This document shows positions 8,696 through 34,153 of a DNA stretch of 34,417 nucleotides, piece by piece. The notes below the pieces were generated by a model. The model had not been told where the DNA came from and ran no database searches. It was given only the letters and a program-made list of their open reading frames with translations. Location of the stretch: NCBI GenBank assembly GCA_003134695.1, contig PLCB01000019.1:14930-49346 (forward strand). The letters are read 5' to 3'. The translations under genes were made by a program, and so were the position numbers. This stretch comes from Candidatus Zemynaea palustris (GTDB taxonomy: Bacteria; Vulcanimicrobiota; Vulcanimicrobiia; Vulcanimicrobiales; Vulcanimicrobiaceae). Numbering within the stretch: the stretch's first letter is position 1; each line of letters begins with the position of its first letter.

Positions 8696-9007
8696 CTACT
8701 CTAAAATCTTCTTCGCTTCCGCGATCAGACGCTTGACCTTCTGGCCGCCTTTGTGGCCGATCTCCTCGTAGAAATCGCTGCCGTACTTGTCCTTGACCAC
8801 GCGGCCGCCTTTTTGTCCGATCTGCTCGTAGAACTGCGCGCCGTGACGCTCGCGCGTCGCCTGACCGCCCTTCCGCCCGATCTGCTCGTAGAAGCCAGAG
8901 CCGTACCGCTCGCGAACGGTATCGCCGCCCTTCTTCCCGGCTTCGCGGACCGACATCTCGCCGCCAGGCTTACCGTTCTGCTCTTGTTTTACCGACTCGT
9001 CCGTCAT
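8696..9007 (-). CDS. KGG-repeat general stress protein
   Basis: This is a small, very hydrophilic protein (103 aa) built of repeated KGG motifs: AGKKGGDTVRERYG, IGRKGGQATRERHG, IGQKGGRVVKDKYG and IGHKGGQKVKR. Three copies of FYE[QE]IG lie 20 residues apart. It belongs to the stress-induced KGG family (GsiB/YciG-like hydrophilins), which are thought to protect cells from drying or starvation; the molecular role is not settled. At DNA level the repeats have a strict 60-bp period. The start has an excellent GGAGGG seven bases upstream. A sigma-B-like promoter and an own terminator mark it as a single-gene unit, divergent from the deacylase. Confidence 0.9.
   Translation of the reverse strand: MTDESVKQEQNGKPGGEMSVREAGKKGGDTVRERYGSGFYEQIGRKGGQATRERHGAQFYEQIGQKGGRVVKDKYGSDFYEEIGHKGGQKVKRLIAEAKKILE
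8757..8893 (-). repeat. Three 60-bp tandem repeat units in KGG gene
   Basis: The 17-base string CCGATCT[C/G]CTCGTAGAA starts at 8757, 8817 and 8877, exactly 60 bp apart on the plus strand, and codes for FYE[Q/E]IG in each unit. A fourth, N-terminal unit is diverged. The near identity suggests recent expansion or strong selection on the repeat. Confidence 0.85.
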
Positions 9008-15341: not shown

Positions 15342-16541
15342 TTACTCGGTGACGCTCTCCAGTGCGTCCGCGACCGAGCCTACTTCGCCGTCGGCGGTAA
15401 ACGCCGCGATCTCCTCGGGCGGCACGTCCATCACGTGCTGGATCGAACCGGTGATGCGCCGCGTCGAATGGTTGACGGTCAGAATCGTGACCTCGACCTC
15501 TTCGCCGGGACTGTACTGCTTCGACGGCTCGAACTCGCCCTTCGGCACCATCGCGAGCACGCCCGGGATGATCTCGACGAGCAGATAGTTCGGCGTCACC
15601 TTCACCACTTGCGCGATCAGGCGCTGACCTTCGATGAGCTTGTCGGCGTGTTCGACCCACGGATCCGGCAGCGCGTGCTTGAGCGAAAGCGAGACTTTCT
15701 TCGCCTCGGGGTCGAACTTCATCACCTCGACCTGCACGATGTCGCCGATTTTGACGACTTCGCTCGGATGCTTGATCCGTGCGTACGAGAGTTCGCTGTT
15801 GTGGATCAGCCCGTCGATGCCGCCGAGGTCGACGAATGCCCCGAACTCGGCTAGGCGAACGACCACGCCTTCGCGGATCTGCCCGACCGCCAGCGTGCCG
15901 AGCAACTCGGTCTTCTTGGCGTTGAGTTCTTCCTCTAATACGAGGCGCTGCGAGAGCACCACGCGATGACGCTTGTGATCGAGATCGATCACCTTGAGTC
16001 GCAGATGCTTCCCGACGAGTTCGTCGAGATTGCCGACCGGTTGGCGACGAATCTGCGAAGCCGGCACGAAGCCGCGCATTCCTAGGTCGACCAAGACGCC
16101 GCCCTTGACGACTTGCGTGACCGTCGCTTCGATCACTTCGTCGTTCTCGTGGGCTTCGATCACTTTCTCCCACGTCTTGAGCGCGCGAGCGCGCCGCTCG
16201 GAGAGAAAGAGCGTTCCGTCCTGGTCGTCGATGCGGTGAATCATCACCTCGAGCTTGTCGCCGACGCGTAATTCTTTCGCCTCGATCGCGAGTGAAAGCT
16301 CGCGGAAGCTCAAGATGCCTTCCGACTTGCCCCCGATATCGACGAGTAACTCGTCTTGATACTTCGCGACGATGACGCCGGTGAGAACCTGGCCCTCGTC
16401 GAGCACTTTGAGGCTCTCTTCATACATGCGCTGCTCGAGCGCGAGTTGGTCTTCGAGTTCTTCCGCCGGTTGCGGTGCGATATCGGTGCTAGTAATACGG
16501 TTCCCCTTTACTCGGCACGCCGGATCGAATCGTCCGGTCAC
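15342..16541 (-). CDS. rpsA: Ribosomal protein S1 family protein
   Basis: This is a 30S ribosomal protein S1 homolog (up to 399 aa) with four S1 RNA-binding domains, near residues 48-117 (VLTGVIVAKYQDELLVDIGGKSEGIL), 134-200 (GVLVDLGMRGFVPASQI), 218-290 (EGVVVRLAEFGAFVDLGGIDGLIHNSEL) and 305-375 (AQVVKVTPNYLLVEIIPGVLAMVP). Four domains is usual outside proteobacteria. It helps mRNA bind the ribosome. The GTG at 16541 is the only standard start but has a weak ribosome site. A strong AAAGGGG is followed six bases later by an in-frame ATT at 16496, which would give a 384-aa protein. It is the last gene of a long minus-strand run, after mutM. Confidence 0.9.
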   Translation of the reverse strand: MTGRFDPACRVKGNRITSTDIAPQPAEELEDQLALEQRMYEESLKVLDEGQVLTGVIVAKYQDELLVDIGGKSEGILSFRELSLAIEAKELRVGDKLEVMIHRIDDQDGTLFLSERRARALKTWEKVIEAHENDEVIEATVTQVVKGGVLVDLGMRGFVPASQIRRQPVGNLDELVGKHLRLKVIDLDHKRHRVVLSQRLVLEEELNAKKTELLGTLAVGQIREGVVVRLAEFGAFVDLGGIDGLIHNSELSYARIKHPSEVVKIGDIVQVEVMKFDPEAKKVSLSLKHALPDPWVEHADKLIEGQRLIAQVVKVTPNYLLVEIIPGVLAMVPKGEFEPSKQYSPGEEVEVTILTVNHSTRRITGSIQHVMDVPPEEIAAFTADGEVGSVADALESVTE

Positions 16542-29419: not shown

Positions 29420-29442
29420 GACGGCGAGCGCCCTTCGGCGTC
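29420..29442. terminator. Possible weak bidirectional hairpin between convergent genes
   Basis: Between the convergent pntB and binding-protein genes, GACG (29420-29423) pairs with CGTC (29439-29442). After one mismatch an inner 3-bp pairing follows. The stem is short, imperfect and has no U-tract on either strand. It is given only because it is the one structure in a 24-base gap where both transcripts must end. Confidence 0.25.
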
Positions 29443-31042
29443 ATTCAAGACTCCAGTTGTAGGCGTTCCAGGTCGGCGAGAAAGAGTTCGGAGCGAAACC
29501 GTGCAGACGCGTGTTGTACGCGTAGACGTAACCTGCGTTGAACAAATACACAATCGGGACGTCGCGGGCGACGATCCGGTCGATCGCGAGGTAGGCGTCG
29601 CGGCGCTCGGATTCGTGAGGTTCGGCGACGGCTTTGCGCTCGAGACGCTCGACGTCACGATTGCAATAGCGCATGTAGTTGGCCGTCGCCTCGCAACCCA
29701 GTAAGAAGAAATCGTCCGGGTCGGCGCCCATCGTCCAGGGGACGTACGCGAGATCGAAGTTTCCGCTCGCCAGCACGCCCGTTTTCGGAAGAAAGAATTG
29801 CGCTTGGGTGATTTGCCTGACGGGCGTTGACACGCCGCGCTCGTGAAGCTGACGCTCCGCGAAGGCCGCGACTCGCAGCCCGGTCGTCGTCTCGACGAAC
29901 TGCACGTAGTTCAATTCGAGCGGCATCCCGTTCTTCTGACGCCGCCCGCCGGGCCCGCGGCGCCAACCCGCCGCGTCGAACAGGCGGTCGGCGAGCGCCG
30001 GATCGTAGCCCGGTTCTTTGACCCTCGGATCGAACGCCCAGGAAAAGCGCGGACGGTCGGAGTCGGCGACCGGATAATTTCCGTAGGTGATCTTCCGGCT
30101 GATTGCGCCGCGATCGAGGGCCGCCGCGAAGGCGCGCCGGACGCGGACGTCGTCGAGCGGCGGGTGTTTCGTATTGAGGGCCAGCCCCGCGACGATCGCC
30201 GTCGGCACGTGAACGAACCCGATATTCTTGTTGTCTTTGAGGACGGGGATCTGCACCGGCGCGACCAGGTTGAAGTCGATCGCCCCGGAGCGCAAGAGCG
30301 TGAGGTTCGAGTTGGGATCGGGGACGATTTCGATGTCGAGCGCGTCGATTTTCGGGCGGCCGCGCCAGTAGCGCGGGTTGGCACGGTAGACGAGACGATC
30401 GCCACGATTCCAGCGTTCGAACAAATACGGCCCGTCGCCGACGTTCGGTGCGGCCGAGAATTGCGCGCGAACGAGCGGCTTTTGTTGCTCGAGAACGTGC
30501 GCCGGTAGCACGTACTGCGGCGCGGTGCCGTAGGTGAAGAAGGTCGCGACCGCCGGCGCCCACGCGCGTTTGAGATGGAAACGTACGGCATACGCGCCGA
30601 GCGCTTCGGCGCGATCGATCAACTCGTACCCTTCGCGCGACGGGACGGGATTGGCCGGATCGAGGATCGCGTGCAGCGTGAACAAGACGTCGCGCGAGCT
30701 GACCGGGACCCCGTCGCTCCAACGGACGCCGCGTCGTAAGTGGTAGACGATCGTTCGGCCGTCCGGTGAGACTCCGCCGTTGCGAACGCTCGGAACGATC
30801 GAGAGCAGTTCGGGGACGGGGTTGCCGCGCGCATCCAGATCGAAGAACGGCTCGAAGGCGAGATGCGCGAGTTGCTGATCGACGTTGGCGGCGTCTGAGC
30901 GTGCGAACAGCGGGTCGAGCGTCGCCGGGTCGGCCGTGACGTCGAAGCGGAGCGTGGAGACCGGGCGCGCCCCCGGCGCATCGGCCGGCGGGCCACAAGC
31001 AGCCAGAAGCGCCAACAAAAGAAGCACCACCAGCGGTCGCAT
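29441..31042 (-). CDS. Lipoprotein ABC-transporter solute-binding protein, family 5
   Basis: This 533-aa binding lipoprotein belongs to the peptide/nickel (SBP_bac_5, DppA/OppA-like) family. A signal with lipobox LLAAC (Cys16) is followed by LRFDVTADPATLDPLFARSDAAN, GRTIVYHLRRGVRWSDGVPVSSRDVLFTLHAILDPANP, GDGPYLFERWNRGDRLVYRANPRYWRGRPKIDALDIEIVPD, VRRAFAAALDRGAISR and the ligand-lobe C-terminus. These blocks are characteristic. No permease or ATPase genes are within the window, so it is an orphan here. ATG 31042 is chosen for the signal. Two perfect dyads lie in the leader. It is divergent from the lrp-kdd-kamA operon, so peptide supply for lysine use is an attractive but unproven link. Confidence 0.9.
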   Translation of the reverse strand: MRPLVVLLLLALLAACGPPADAPGARPVSTLRFDVTADPATLDPLFARSDAANVDQQLAHLAFEPFFDLDARGNPVPELLSIVPSVRNGGVSPDGRTIVYHLRRGVRWSDGVPVSSRDVLFTLHAILDPANPVPSREGYELIDRAEALGAYAVRFHLKRAWAPAVATFFTYGTAPQYVLPAHVLEQQKPLVRAQFSAAPNVGDGPYLFERWNRGDRLVYRANPRYWRGRPKIDALDIEIVPDPNSNLTLLRSGAIDFNLVAPVQIPVLKDNKNIGFVHVPTAIVAGLALNTKHPPLDDVRVRRAFAAALDRGAISRKITYGNYPVADSDRPRFSWAFDPRVKEPGYDPALADRLFDAAGWRRGPGGRRQKNGMPLELNYVQFVETTTGLRVAAFAERQLHERGVSTPVRQITQAQFFLPKTGVLASGNFDLAYVPWTMGADPDDFFLLGCEATANYMRYCNRDVERLERKAVAEPHESERRDAYLAIDRIVARDVPIVYLFNAGYVYAYNTRLHGFAPNSFSPTWNAYNWSLE

Positions 31043-31079
31043 CGGCGCAAACTGCGCCGCGAGGGGGGAGGCGCCTCCC
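31043..31079 (-). promoter_or_regulatory. Two dyads in the binding-protein leader
   Basis: CGGCGCA (31043-31049) and TGCGCCG (31053-31059) form a 7-bp stem with a 3-base loop touching the start codon. GGGAGGC (31066-31072) and GCCTCCC (31073-31079) form a loopless 14-bp perfect palindrome. On the minus strand the second contains GGGAGG, the best ribosome-binding string nearby. The first hairpin would sit where the ribosome must load. They could act as a protein operator or as an RNA structure limiting translation. Confidence 0.4.
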
Positions 31080-31138: not shown

Positions 31139-31196
31139 CCGGAAAGTATCCGTTAATATCTTGTAACCACCGGATAAACAGACTATACTAGTCCGG
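31139..31196 (+). promoter_or_regulatory. Phased CCGGA/TCCGG motifs, possible Lrp-type operator
   Basis: CCGGA occurs at 31139 and 31170; TCCG occurs at 31149 and TCCGG at 31192. The steps between successive motifs are 10, 21 and 22 bp, near whole helical turns, and they straddle the promoter. Lrp/AsnC regulators bind multiple phased half-sites and often control their own gene, which lies immediately downstream. GC-rich DNA makes such pentamers common, so this is suggestive only. Confidence 0.4.
31161..31189 (+). promoter_or_regulatory. Sigma-70-type promoter of lrp-kdd-kamA
   Basis: TTGTAA (31161-31166), a 17-bp spacer and TATACT (31184-31189) give a strong housekeeping promoter. The start would fall near 31196, leaving a leader of about 35 bases to the GTG at 31231. 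The -10 box sits inside GACTA-TAC-TAGTC (31181-31193), a perfect inverted repeat, so a regulator bound there would block polymerase. Confidence 0.75.
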
Positions 31197-31230
31197 CCTC
31201 ACACAAACTTCATTCATGCGGAGCCCTACC

Positions 31231-31737
31231 GTGCTCGACCACCCTGAACTCGACGATCTCGACCTTCGTCTCCTCGACGCCCTGCAGCGCAACGCGCGTT
31301 CGACCTTCGCCGAACTCGCGGGTGCGGTCGGCCTGGGCTCGTCCGCCGTACACGATCGTGTCAAGCGGCTCGAGCAGCGGGGCTACGTGAAAGGTTACGC
31401 GGCGCGCATCGACGGTCGCCGGCTCGGTATCGCGCTCATCGCGTTCGTCAGCGTCTATACGACGCCCGACGTTCAGTACGAAGCGTTCACGCGCGCCGTC
31501 GCGGCCCTACCGGAGATCGCGGAGATTCACAGCGTCGCCGGCGAGGAATCTTTCGTTCTAAAAGTCCTGACACGGTCCACCGCGCATCTCGACGATTTTC
31601 TTTCGCGTCTCAAGGCGACCGCCGGCATCGCGCGCACCAAGACGACGATCGTACTCTCCACCCCGTTCGAACGCGAAGGCTTCGCGCTCGCGGGCCTCGT
31701 CGGCAACGGCGCGACGCCGTCGGGAAACGGACGATGA
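31231..31737 (+). CDS. Lrp/AsnC family transcriptional regulator
   Basis: This 168-aa regulator has an N-terminal winged helix-turn-helix (LDDLDLRLLDALQRNARSTFAELAGAVGLGSSAVHDRVKRLEQRGYVKGYAARID) followed by a RAM/AsnC ligand domain (IALIAFVSVYTTP, EIAEIHSVAGEESFVLKVLTRSTAHLDDFL, TKTTIVLSTPFE). Such proteins sense amino acids and often regulate themselves and neighbours. GTG 31231 is preferred over ATG 31216 because GCGGAG lies seven bases before it. kdd starts within its last codons (ATGA), so the regulator is co-expressed with lysine-degradation genes. Lysine or a pathway intermediate is a reasonable guess for its ligand. Confidence 0.92.
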   Translation: MLDHPELDDLDLRLLDALQRNARSTFAELAGAVGLGSSAVHDRVKRLEQRGYVKGYAARIDGRRLGIALIAFVSVYTTPDVQYEAFTRAVAALPEIAEIHSVAGEESFVLKVLTRSTAHLDDFLSRLKATAGIARTKTTIVLSTPFEREGFALAGLVGNGATPSGNGR

Positions 31738-32801
31738 GACTCGACCTCCCGTCGGGCGGGCTCTGCCGGCTCGGTTCGCATCGCGTCCTCGAACCAGCCG
31801 GAGCACTGCCGCAAAACGCTTGGAAACTCGACGCGCGGCCGATCGCCTTCGCGAATGAGATCCTGTGCGACGTCGACGCGCTCAATATCGACTCCGTCTC
31901 TTTTCGCCAGATCGCCGACGTTTGCGGTGGTGACGCGAAGCGCGTCGCCGAGCACGTCGTTGCGCTCGTCGGGCAGCGTGGTAAGCAGCACAACGCCGCA
32001 ACCGGTAGCGGTGGGATGTTCGTCGGCCGCGTGCGCGAGATCGGCGAAGCGTTACGGTCTCGCCCGGACATCAAGGAAGGCGCACGCATCGCTTCACTCG
32101 TGTCGCTGACGATCACGCCGCTCGCAATCGACGAAGTGCTGCGCGTCGACATGGCCACCGGCCGCTTGTGGATTCGCGGCAGCGCGATTCTCTTCGAGAG
32201 TTGTCTCTACACGACGTTGCCCGACGACATCCCGGACGACGTGGCGCTCGCGGTGCTCGACGTCGCGGGCGCGCCCGCGCAAGTCCGCCGCCTCGCCAAA
32301 CCGGGGCAGACCATCGTCGTCCTCGGCGCCGACGGAAAATCCGGGATGCTCGCCGTCGCGCAAGCGCGCGAGCGTGCCGGGCCGACCGGCCGAATCGTCG
32401 GCGTCGCGCCCGACGCCGCAACCTCCGGGGCACGACTACTAGTCGAGCACGGATATGTGGATGCCTTCGTCGCCGCCGACGCGCGCGACCCACTCGGCCT
32501 CGTCGCCGCCGTCTCGGCTGCCGTCCCGGAACTGGCCGATCTCACGGTCAATTGCGTCAACGTCGCGGGCACGGAATCGGCCTCGATTCTCTGCACGAAA
32601 GACGAGGGAATGGTCTATTTCTTCTCGATGAGCACGTCGTTTACGGCGGCCGCGCTCAGCGCAGAAGGAATGGGGAAAGACGTGACCATGATCGTCGGCA
32701 ACGGCTACGCGAAGGGTCACGCCGACGTTGCGCTGCAAACGCTGCGCGATCACCCGCCGATCCAGCGCTACTTCACCGAGAAGTATGGTGCCCACGAATG
32801 A
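31734..32801 (+). CDS. kdd: L-erythro-3,5-diaminohexanoate dehydrogenase
   Basis: Kdd oxidatively deaminates L-erythro-3,5-diaminohexanoate to 5-amino-3-oxohexanoate with NAD(P)+, a middle step of the 3,5-diaminohexanoate lysine fermentation pathway (355 aa, normal length). RLGSHRVLEPAGALPQNAWKLD, ANEILCDVDALNIDS, RGKQHNAATGSGGMFVGRV, ITPLAIDEVLRVDMATGRLWI and the cofactor loop TIVVLGADGKSGMLAVAQARE match the family. AALSAEGMGKDVTMIVGNGYAKGH near the end is highly characteristic. It is coupled by ATGA overlaps both to the Lrp gene before it and to kamA after it. No kamDE, kce or kal genes lie in the window. Confidence 0.92.
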   Translation: MRLDLPSGGLCRLGSHRVLEPAGALPQNAWKLDARPIAFANEILCDVDALNIDSVSFRQIADVCGGDAKRVAEHVVALVGQRGKQHNAATGSGGMFVGRVREIGEALRSRPDIKEGARIASLVSLTITPLAIDEVLRVDMATGRLWIRGSAILFESCLYTTLPDDIPDDVALAVLDVAGAPAQVRRLAKPGQTIVVLGADGKSGMLAVAQARERAGPTGRIVGVAPDAATSGARLLVEHGYVDAFVAADARDPLGLVAAVSAAVPELADLTVNCVNVAGTESASILCTKDEGMVYFFSMSTSFTAAALSAEGMGKDVTMIVGNGYAKGHADVALQTLRDHPPIQRYFTEKYGAHE

Positions 32802-34153
32802 TAAAGCCGCCGGCGCCGCCCGAAGCGTTTGCTTATACCAAAATACGTCAAGGCGAGTTCTGGCGCGCCATCCCCAAGTATCGCGACGTCGACGAGAGGA
32901 CATTTCTCGATCATATCTGGCAGGGGCAGAACTCGGTAAAATCCCCGGACGAATTGCTCGCTACGGTCGAGGATCTCGTCGACCCGTCGTTTATCGAGGA
33001 CGCGCGCGAAGGGTTCCGCCGCGCGCCGATGGCCGTGCGCGTCTCGCCCTACATGATCGCGTCGATCGACTGGTCGAAACCGTACACCGACCCGATCCGG
33101 ACGCAGTTCATTCCGCTGGCCTCGCGGCTGCGGCCCGATCATCCACGCCTAACGCTCGACTCGTTGCACGAACTCGAAGACTCACCGGTTCCCGGACTGA
33201 CGCATCGCTACGTCGACAAGGCGCTCTTTCTGCCGCTGACCGTATGTCCGGTGTACTGCCGTTTCTGCACGCGCTCGTACGCGATCGGCGCGGATACGGA
33301 CGTCGTCGACAAAGTCCCGCTGGCGCGGACGCCCAAACAGTGGCAAGACGCTTTCGACTACATCGCCTCGCGTCCCGAGCTCGAAGATATCGTGATCTCC
33401 GGCGGCGACGTCTACCAGCTTCCGGCCAAATCGATTCTGACGATCGGTGAAGCGCTGCTCGCGATTCCGCACGTGCGCCGGATGCGCTTCGCGACCAAAG
33501 GCCCGGCCGTGATGCCGATGAAGATTTTAACCGATCACGCCTGGGTCGACGCGGTCACCGCGATCGTCGAGAAAGGCCGGAAGCTCGGGAAGGAAGTCGT
33601 GATCCACACGCACTTCAACAACCCCAACGAGATCAGCTGGATCACCGAGCGGGCGATGCGGCTCCTTTTCGAGCGCGCGATAACGGTGCGCAATCAAACC
33701 GTCTTGATTCGCGGCGTAAACGACGATCCGAACGTCATGCAACTGCTGGTGAAACAGCTCGGCTATCTCCACGTCCATCCGTATTACGTCTACATGCACG
33801 ACTTGGTGAAGGGCGTCGAGGATTTACGCACGTCGATTCAGACCGCCGTCGACGTCGAAAAATTCGTGCGCGGCTCGACCGCCGGCTTCAACACGCCGAC
33901 CTTCGTCTGCGACGCACCGGGCGGCGGCGGAAAGCGCGACGTCCACTCGTTCGATCACTACGATCGCGAAAACGGCATCTCGGTGTACTCGGCACCGAGC
34001 GTCAAGCCCGGCAAACACTTCGTCTACTTCGATCCGATCGACACGCTCGGGCCGGAAGCCCAAGCCCGCTGGCAGCATCCGGCGACGGCGGAAGCGATGA
34101 TCGCCGATGCGATCGTCGCCGCCGGCGGTCCGCGTACGTACGTCCCGGCTTAG
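32798..34153 (+). CDS. kamA: Lysine 2,3-aminomutase (radical SAM)
   Basis: This radical SAM, PLP-dependent enzyme (451 aa) converts L-lysine to L-beta-lysine. The [4Fe-4S] motif CPVYCRFCTRS gives Cys150, Cys154 and Cys157. VISGGDVYQLP, MRFATKGPAVMP, EVVIHTHFNNPNEI, TVRNQTVLIRGVND, LHVHPYYVYMHDLVKG and FVCDAPGGGGK follow; the final Lys379 should hold PLP. GGDVYQ stands where many homologs have GGDPL, a slight deviation. Length exceeds the EpmB (YjeK) group, which together with the adjacent kdd favours catabolic KamA. Many relatives have the dyad ending VVDAPGGGGK; here it is VCDAP. It overlaps kdd by four bases (ATGA). The frame open upstream to 32168 is shadow sequence. Confidence 0.93.
   Translation: MIKPPAPPEAFAYTKIRQGEFWRAIPKYRDVDERTFLDHIWQGQNSVKSPDELLATVEDLVDPSFIEDAREGFRRAPMAVRVSPYMIASIDWSKPYTDPIRTQFIPLASRLRPDHPRLTLDSLHELEDSPVPGLTHRYVDKALFLPLTVCPVYCRFCTRSYAIGADTDVVDKVPLARTPKQWQDAFDYIASRPELEDIVISGGDVYQLPAKSILTIGEALLAIPHVRRMRFATKGPAVMPMKILTDHAWVDAVTAIVEKGRKLGKEVVIHTHFNNPNEISWITERAMRLLFERAITVRNQTVLIRGVNDDPNVMQLLVKQLGYLHVHPYYVYMHDLVKGVEDLRTSIQTAVDVEKFVRGSTAGFNTPTFVCDAPGGGGKRDVHSFDHYDRENGISVYSAPSVKPGKHFVYFDPIDTLGPEAQARWQHPATAEAMIADAIVAAGGPRTYVPA

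Follow-up and report, generated by a model that had tools for sequence, protein, structure and literature searches.

The question raised by this locus is whether an operon holding a regulator and only two enzymes of lysine degradation works as a unit of its own, or as one portion of a pathway whose other genes lie elsewhere. The stretch of DNA analysed (the window, 34,417 nucleotides) comes from Candidatus Zemynaea palustris, a member of Ca. Eremiobacterota, and corresponds to positions 14930-49346 of contig C26 in a 2.70 Mb genome (97% complete, G000). Its 3' edge is the end of the contig, so the sequence can be read only as far as the gene that starts after kamA. A preliminary description, made from the window alone, had recognized three coupled genes for a regulator and two lysine-pathway enzymes, and this holds: the lrp/kdd and kdd/kamA junctions are ATGA overlaps, and the products match, respectively, PF01037 with HTH_AsnC (Lrp), NF052381 (Kdd), and TIGR00238 (KamA). 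The features are listed in Table 1.

Table 1. Position of the lrp operon, its promoter elements, and the adjoining gene, numbered from the first letter of the window.
Feature	Position	Strand	Remarks
Divergent SBP_bac_5 peptide-binding lipoprotein gene	29441-31050	-	Domain match; divergent from lrp in 25 of 30 family loci
Operator-like semi-palindrome CCGGA-AAGTA-TCCGT (9 of 10 palindrome positions), upstream of -35	31139-31153		Same place in nearest kin
Sigma-70-like promoter TTGTAA-17-TATACT of the lrp operon	31161-31189	+	Aligned in relatives
Half-site CCGGATAAA between -35 and -10	31170-31178	+	31 bp from palindrome start
TCCGG half-site near the expected transcription start	31192-31196		Motif position
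lrp, Lrp/AsnC-family regulator, 173 aa from ATG	31216-31737	+	PF01037, PF13404 (HTH_AsnC); kept in 30 of 30 loci
kdd, L-erythro-3,5-diaminohexanoate dehydrogenase, 355 aa	31734-32801	+	Sole copy in genome
kamA, lysine 2,3-aminomutase of divergent lineage, 451 aa	32798-34153	+	Sole copy in genome

The Lrp protein carries both the AsnC-type HTH and the Lrp/AsnC ligand-binding domain; a GTG codon at 31231, preceded by GGAG, is as likely a start as the ATG and gives 168 aa. Kdd scores 230 bits with its model (cut-off 200) and matches PDB 7dl3 with an E-value of 3e-91, and its named relatives, at 62-69% identity, come nearly all from Ca. Eremiobacterota / WPS-2. The operon is real and conserved, since lrp, kdd, and kamA are consecutive on one strand in all 30 family loci examined. 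The position of kdd before kamA had been taken as one sign of a lysine-responsive unit. The order itself is real, but it is common in other phyla and, therefore, ordinary; the internal lrp gene and the dispersal of the pathway are not. No RNA families were found in the window. Small proteins built of repeated FYEQIGxKGG-like units are encoded at 8696-9007 of the window and at 15511-15846 of the stretch around kce (L060), giving a total of two in the parts of the genome that were read.

In the canonical lysine fermentation cluster of Fusobacterium, Clostridium, and Bacteroidetes (kamA, kamB-E, kdd, kce, and kal), for which the pathway layout has been described (PMC3149608), the same enzymes occur, and kdd is often found immediately upstream of kamA, with both genes in a single cluster that also holds kamB-E and kce. 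Here, by contrast, the genes are spread over four places, an Lrp gene sits in the kdd-kamA operon, KamA is of another lineage, and KamC is missing. The genes kamD, kamE, kce, and kal are indeed absent from the window, as had been remarked, but not from the genome, where all were found at loci other than the operon. KamD (C41:137149-138660) scores 751 bits against an equivalog cut-off of 600, and KamE, encoded by the next gene, 335 bits against 280; genes for thiolase and 3-hydroxybutyryl-CoA dehydrogenase are found close by, within that stretch. Kal is encoded at C41:112432-112785 (196 bits, cut-off 160), and an AtoDA-type CoA-transferase pair on C21. Kce (C45:113452-114249) reaches 381 bits for a cut-off of 382, and its gene has as neighbours two Opp-type permease genes and a KamB-like gene with a weak score (161 versus 210). 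All five activities of the KamA-KamDE-Kdd-Kce-Kal route are encoded in the genome, with KamA assigned at the subfamily level only and Kce 0.9 bit under its cut-off. The clustering that is usual for these genes, although not required, is lacking, as they occupy C26, C41 at 137 kb, C41 at 112 kb, and C45. Of 41 family genomes, 36 gave a match to KamD, 37 to Kdd (weak in one of them), and 37 to BKACE/Kce. KamC was found neither in this genome nor in its genus mate G003; in most relatives, this MutS-like reactivase partner adjoins kce. The weak KamB score and the missing KamC count against the reading of a complete pathway.

These results bear directly on the earlier proposal that beta-lysine is an end product, for example for osmoprotection, with Kdd recruited for another 3-amino acid. 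Such a role would suit a window devoid of kamD/E, kce, and kal and a KamA of divergent lineage, but it is very improbable, given that the missing genes are encoded elsewhere in this genome and in its relatives, that kdd and kamA stay associated across the family, and that AblB, the beta-lysine acetyltransferase, is absent from the genome (best match 38 bits versus 205). An AblB role was, thus, rejected on the cut-off. Nor does a second pathway cluster with its own kdd or kamA exist, as each is present once genome-wide, in the lrp operon. Because kamD, kamE, kce, kal, and the CoA-transferase pair lie elsewhere in the genome, the operon reads as a quarter of a dispersed and complete pathway rather than as an osmolyte unit, and the idea of a self-contained unit is not supported. 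A complete, dispersed lysine degradation pathway would be the simplest reading of the scattered genes, the operon being part of a known pathway in rearranged form.

A transporter is possibly split between two of the pathway loci, as Opp-type permease genes adjoin kce (L060 7493-9360) and the peptide-binding-protein gene adjoins lrp; the SBP_bac_5 lipoprotein is a possible partner of these permeases.

The promoter of the operon had been described as surrounded by phased motifs at steps of 10, 21, and 22 bp. This is borne out, and the motifs are conserved in the family, with the correction that the second word is TCCGT, not TCCGG. The words start at 31139 (CCGGA), 31149 (TCCGT), 31170 (CCGGA), and 31192 (TCCGG), around the hexamers TTGTAA (31161-31166) and TATACT (31184-31189), which are 17 bp apart. 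Four motif words in 71 bp have a probability of about 0.0004 in dinucleotide-resampled sequence, for a count made after the motif had been seen; the independent test of the motifs is their conservation in relatives. The palindrome upstream of the -35 box is also found in the nearest kin (L013 of G003, L014, and partly L015), and it lies near +1 in most other relatives. The common family promoter follows the pattern TTG-N-CCGRAYRAA-spacer-TATANT, frequently accompanied by the 15-bp palindrome CCGRA-N5-TYCGG, and a CCGRAYRAA-like word occupies the -35/-10 spacer of most of the 30 family promoters. The perfect palindrome is present in 9 of these 30 promoters (0.10 expected from resampled sequence), and at least 9 of its 10 positions in 17 (1.4 expected), counts that come from related genomes sharing the promoter by descent and are, therefore, not independent events; the promoters L018, L020, L025, and L035 are without a good palindrome. 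In both arrangements, the palindrome and the spacer half-site are 31-32 bp, or three helical turns, apart, as seen for 19 of the 27 listed distances (-32 in six, +31 in ten, and +32 in three).

Lrp-family sites are known to be spaced by two or three helical turns (PMC2995911), and 15-bp semipalindromes have been described for BarR (PMC10201364). The geometry of the phased 15-bp semipalindromes is Lrp-like, and the protein that binds them would be Lrp. BarR and LysM, which are Lrp-family local regulators of amino-acid genes, resemble this system in having a gene adjoining the metabolic targets (BarR), 15-bp semipalindromes, and helical phasing; the motif differs, being CCGRA-N5-TYCGG, and both Lrp binding and its ligand are putative in the present case. 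The motifs could, alternatively, be bound by another regulator, with the lrp product acting elsewhere, given that Lrp is linked to them by position and spacing only. This is rather unlikely, as, beyond the Lrp-like geometry, the composite site is nearly confined to lrp promoters: a strict pattern gave seven matches in 41 genomes, five at lrp promoters and two in G021, and a reversed-pattern control gave none.

The motif counts cover the fetched loci and the pattern searches. A regulon extending to kamDE was rejected, since none of 14 kamD upstream regions has the palindrome at 9 or more of its 10 positions; no intergenic palindrome was found by kamD or by the kamB-kce block. As separate observations, the genus mate G003 has a perfect CCGGA-N5-TCCGG palindrome 4 bp before kce (L064 5878-5892), which does not occur in G000, and, in many relatives, the kamD ATG is closely preceded by a CCGTAAGATAG-like word, which suggests a -10 box followed by a short leader, or a transcript without any leader.

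An independent link of the regulator family to the lysine pathway is found in betaproteobacterial lysine clusters (Rhodoferax, Dechloromonas, and Paucibacter), where an Lrp-family regulator adjoins kamA, as here, and where the fetched stretches gave no KamC match. These clusters differ in that lrp is divergent from kamA (12 of 13 clusters) rather than co-transcribed, the genes are clustered, kamA precedes kdd, and KamA belongs to yet another lineage; inspection by eye revealed no CCGRA palindrome between lrp and kamA.

The identity of KamA requires more care. It passes TIGR00238 (220 bits, cut-off 199) and matches the lysine 2,3-aminomutase structure 2a5h (E-value 4e-64), but it scores only 243 bits with the AblA equivalog TIGR03820, whose cut-off is 525. 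Its structure model, of modest quality (mean pLDDT 66), has 2a5h as best Foldseek match (E-value 6e-21), so that a 2a5h-like fold is putative. An EpmB role (EF-P beta-lysylation) was rejected, with 159 bits for a TIGR03821 cut-off of 369. The protein is about 51% identical to plasmid-borne KamA-family proteins of Rhizobium and Sinorhizobium and about 46% to those of Klebsiella, versus 30-39% for KamAs from lysine clusters. In the tree, the Eremiobacterota KamAs and the plasmid proteins group together, apart from 56 cluster KamAs (100/100), and the betaproteobacterial KamAs form a further well-supported group, with finer placement unsure given the long branches. By its sequence, this KamA falls in a lineage distinct from that of canonical AblA. 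Its CX3CX2C motif, R159, D335, D372, and K379 align with C125/C129/C132, R134, D293, D330, and K337 of 2a5h. Among the residues compared, it keeps the Fe-S cysteines, the PLP lysine, and both substrate aspartates; it lacks the cysteines that most canonical KamAs have at the C-terminus.

Because KamA falls far under the AblA cut-off and outside the canonical cluster clade, lysine is not proven as its substrate. It could act on another amino acid (e.g., arginine, ornithine, or glutamate), with the operon serving a neighbouring pathway, and its score, its lack of C-terminal cysteines, and its nearest relatives found would agree with this, the latter being plasmid proteins whose genes have as neighbours a polyketide synthase gene, aminotransferase genes, or a tRNA-ligase-like gene and do not belong to lysine clusters. 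It is, nevertheless, unlikely: D335 and D372 are invariant in family KamAs, glutamate and arginine models score lower, and no second KamA is encoded in this genome, alongside KamDE, Kdd, Kce, and Kal. From these features, action on lysine would be expected. As for the plasmid genes themselves (L164, L165, and L166), their neighbours, including an MFS transporter beside the class I tRNA-ligase-like gene, hint at possible beta-amino-acid products in Rhizobium and Klebsiella.

Overall, it is likely that the operon is part of a dispersed canonical lysine degradation pathway, with Lrp regulating its own promoter. KamA would catalyze step 1, from lysine to beta-lysine, and Kdd step 3, from 3,5-diaminohexanoate to 3-keto-5-aminohexanoate, while the other parts would be supplied from three further places: kamDE, with thiolase and hydroxybutyryl-CoA dehydrogenase genes nearby, kamB-kce, with the Opp-type permeases, and kal. 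The lrp-kdd-kamA operon is probably self-regulated, Lrp most likely binding the palindrome and the half-sites three helical turns apart, which cover the -35/-10 spacer. A lysine-responsive operon is plausible, in which Lrp would restrain expression as long as its assembly is not altered by lysine or by a ligand derived from it. The products, crotonyl-CoA and acetoacetyl-CoA, may be oxidized rather than fermented; an acetate kinase and a haem-copper oxidase are both encoded in the genome, which is compatible with fermentation as well as respiration. Vulcanimicrobium alpinus, a cultivated aerobic relative, failed to grow with L-lysine as sole carbon source (PMC9758169), which counts against the proposed pathway as a whole. 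It can be suggested only tentatively, and with some doubt, that a mostly aerobic lineage respires lysine, instead of fermenting it, through a route that is sensitive to oxygen and depends on B12 and radical-SAM chemistry. Its KamA would come from a separate lineage, and a dedicated Lrp, regulating itself, would respond to lysine or a beta-amino acid and act on the kdd-kamA operon alone.

A search covering part of the literature found no paper linking Lrp with the lysine KamA-Kal pathway and none on this route in Eremiobacterota. Of most interest are the pairing of regulator and operator and the lineage of KamA. The former offers a concrete hypothesis on regulator, operator, and ligand for a pathway with no described regulator in the literature searched, and the latter suggests an exchange of KamA between lineages in which the remaining pathway enzymes were retained. 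The known range of the KamA-KamDE-Kdd-Kce-Kal route of lysine degradation would be extended to Eremiobacterota.
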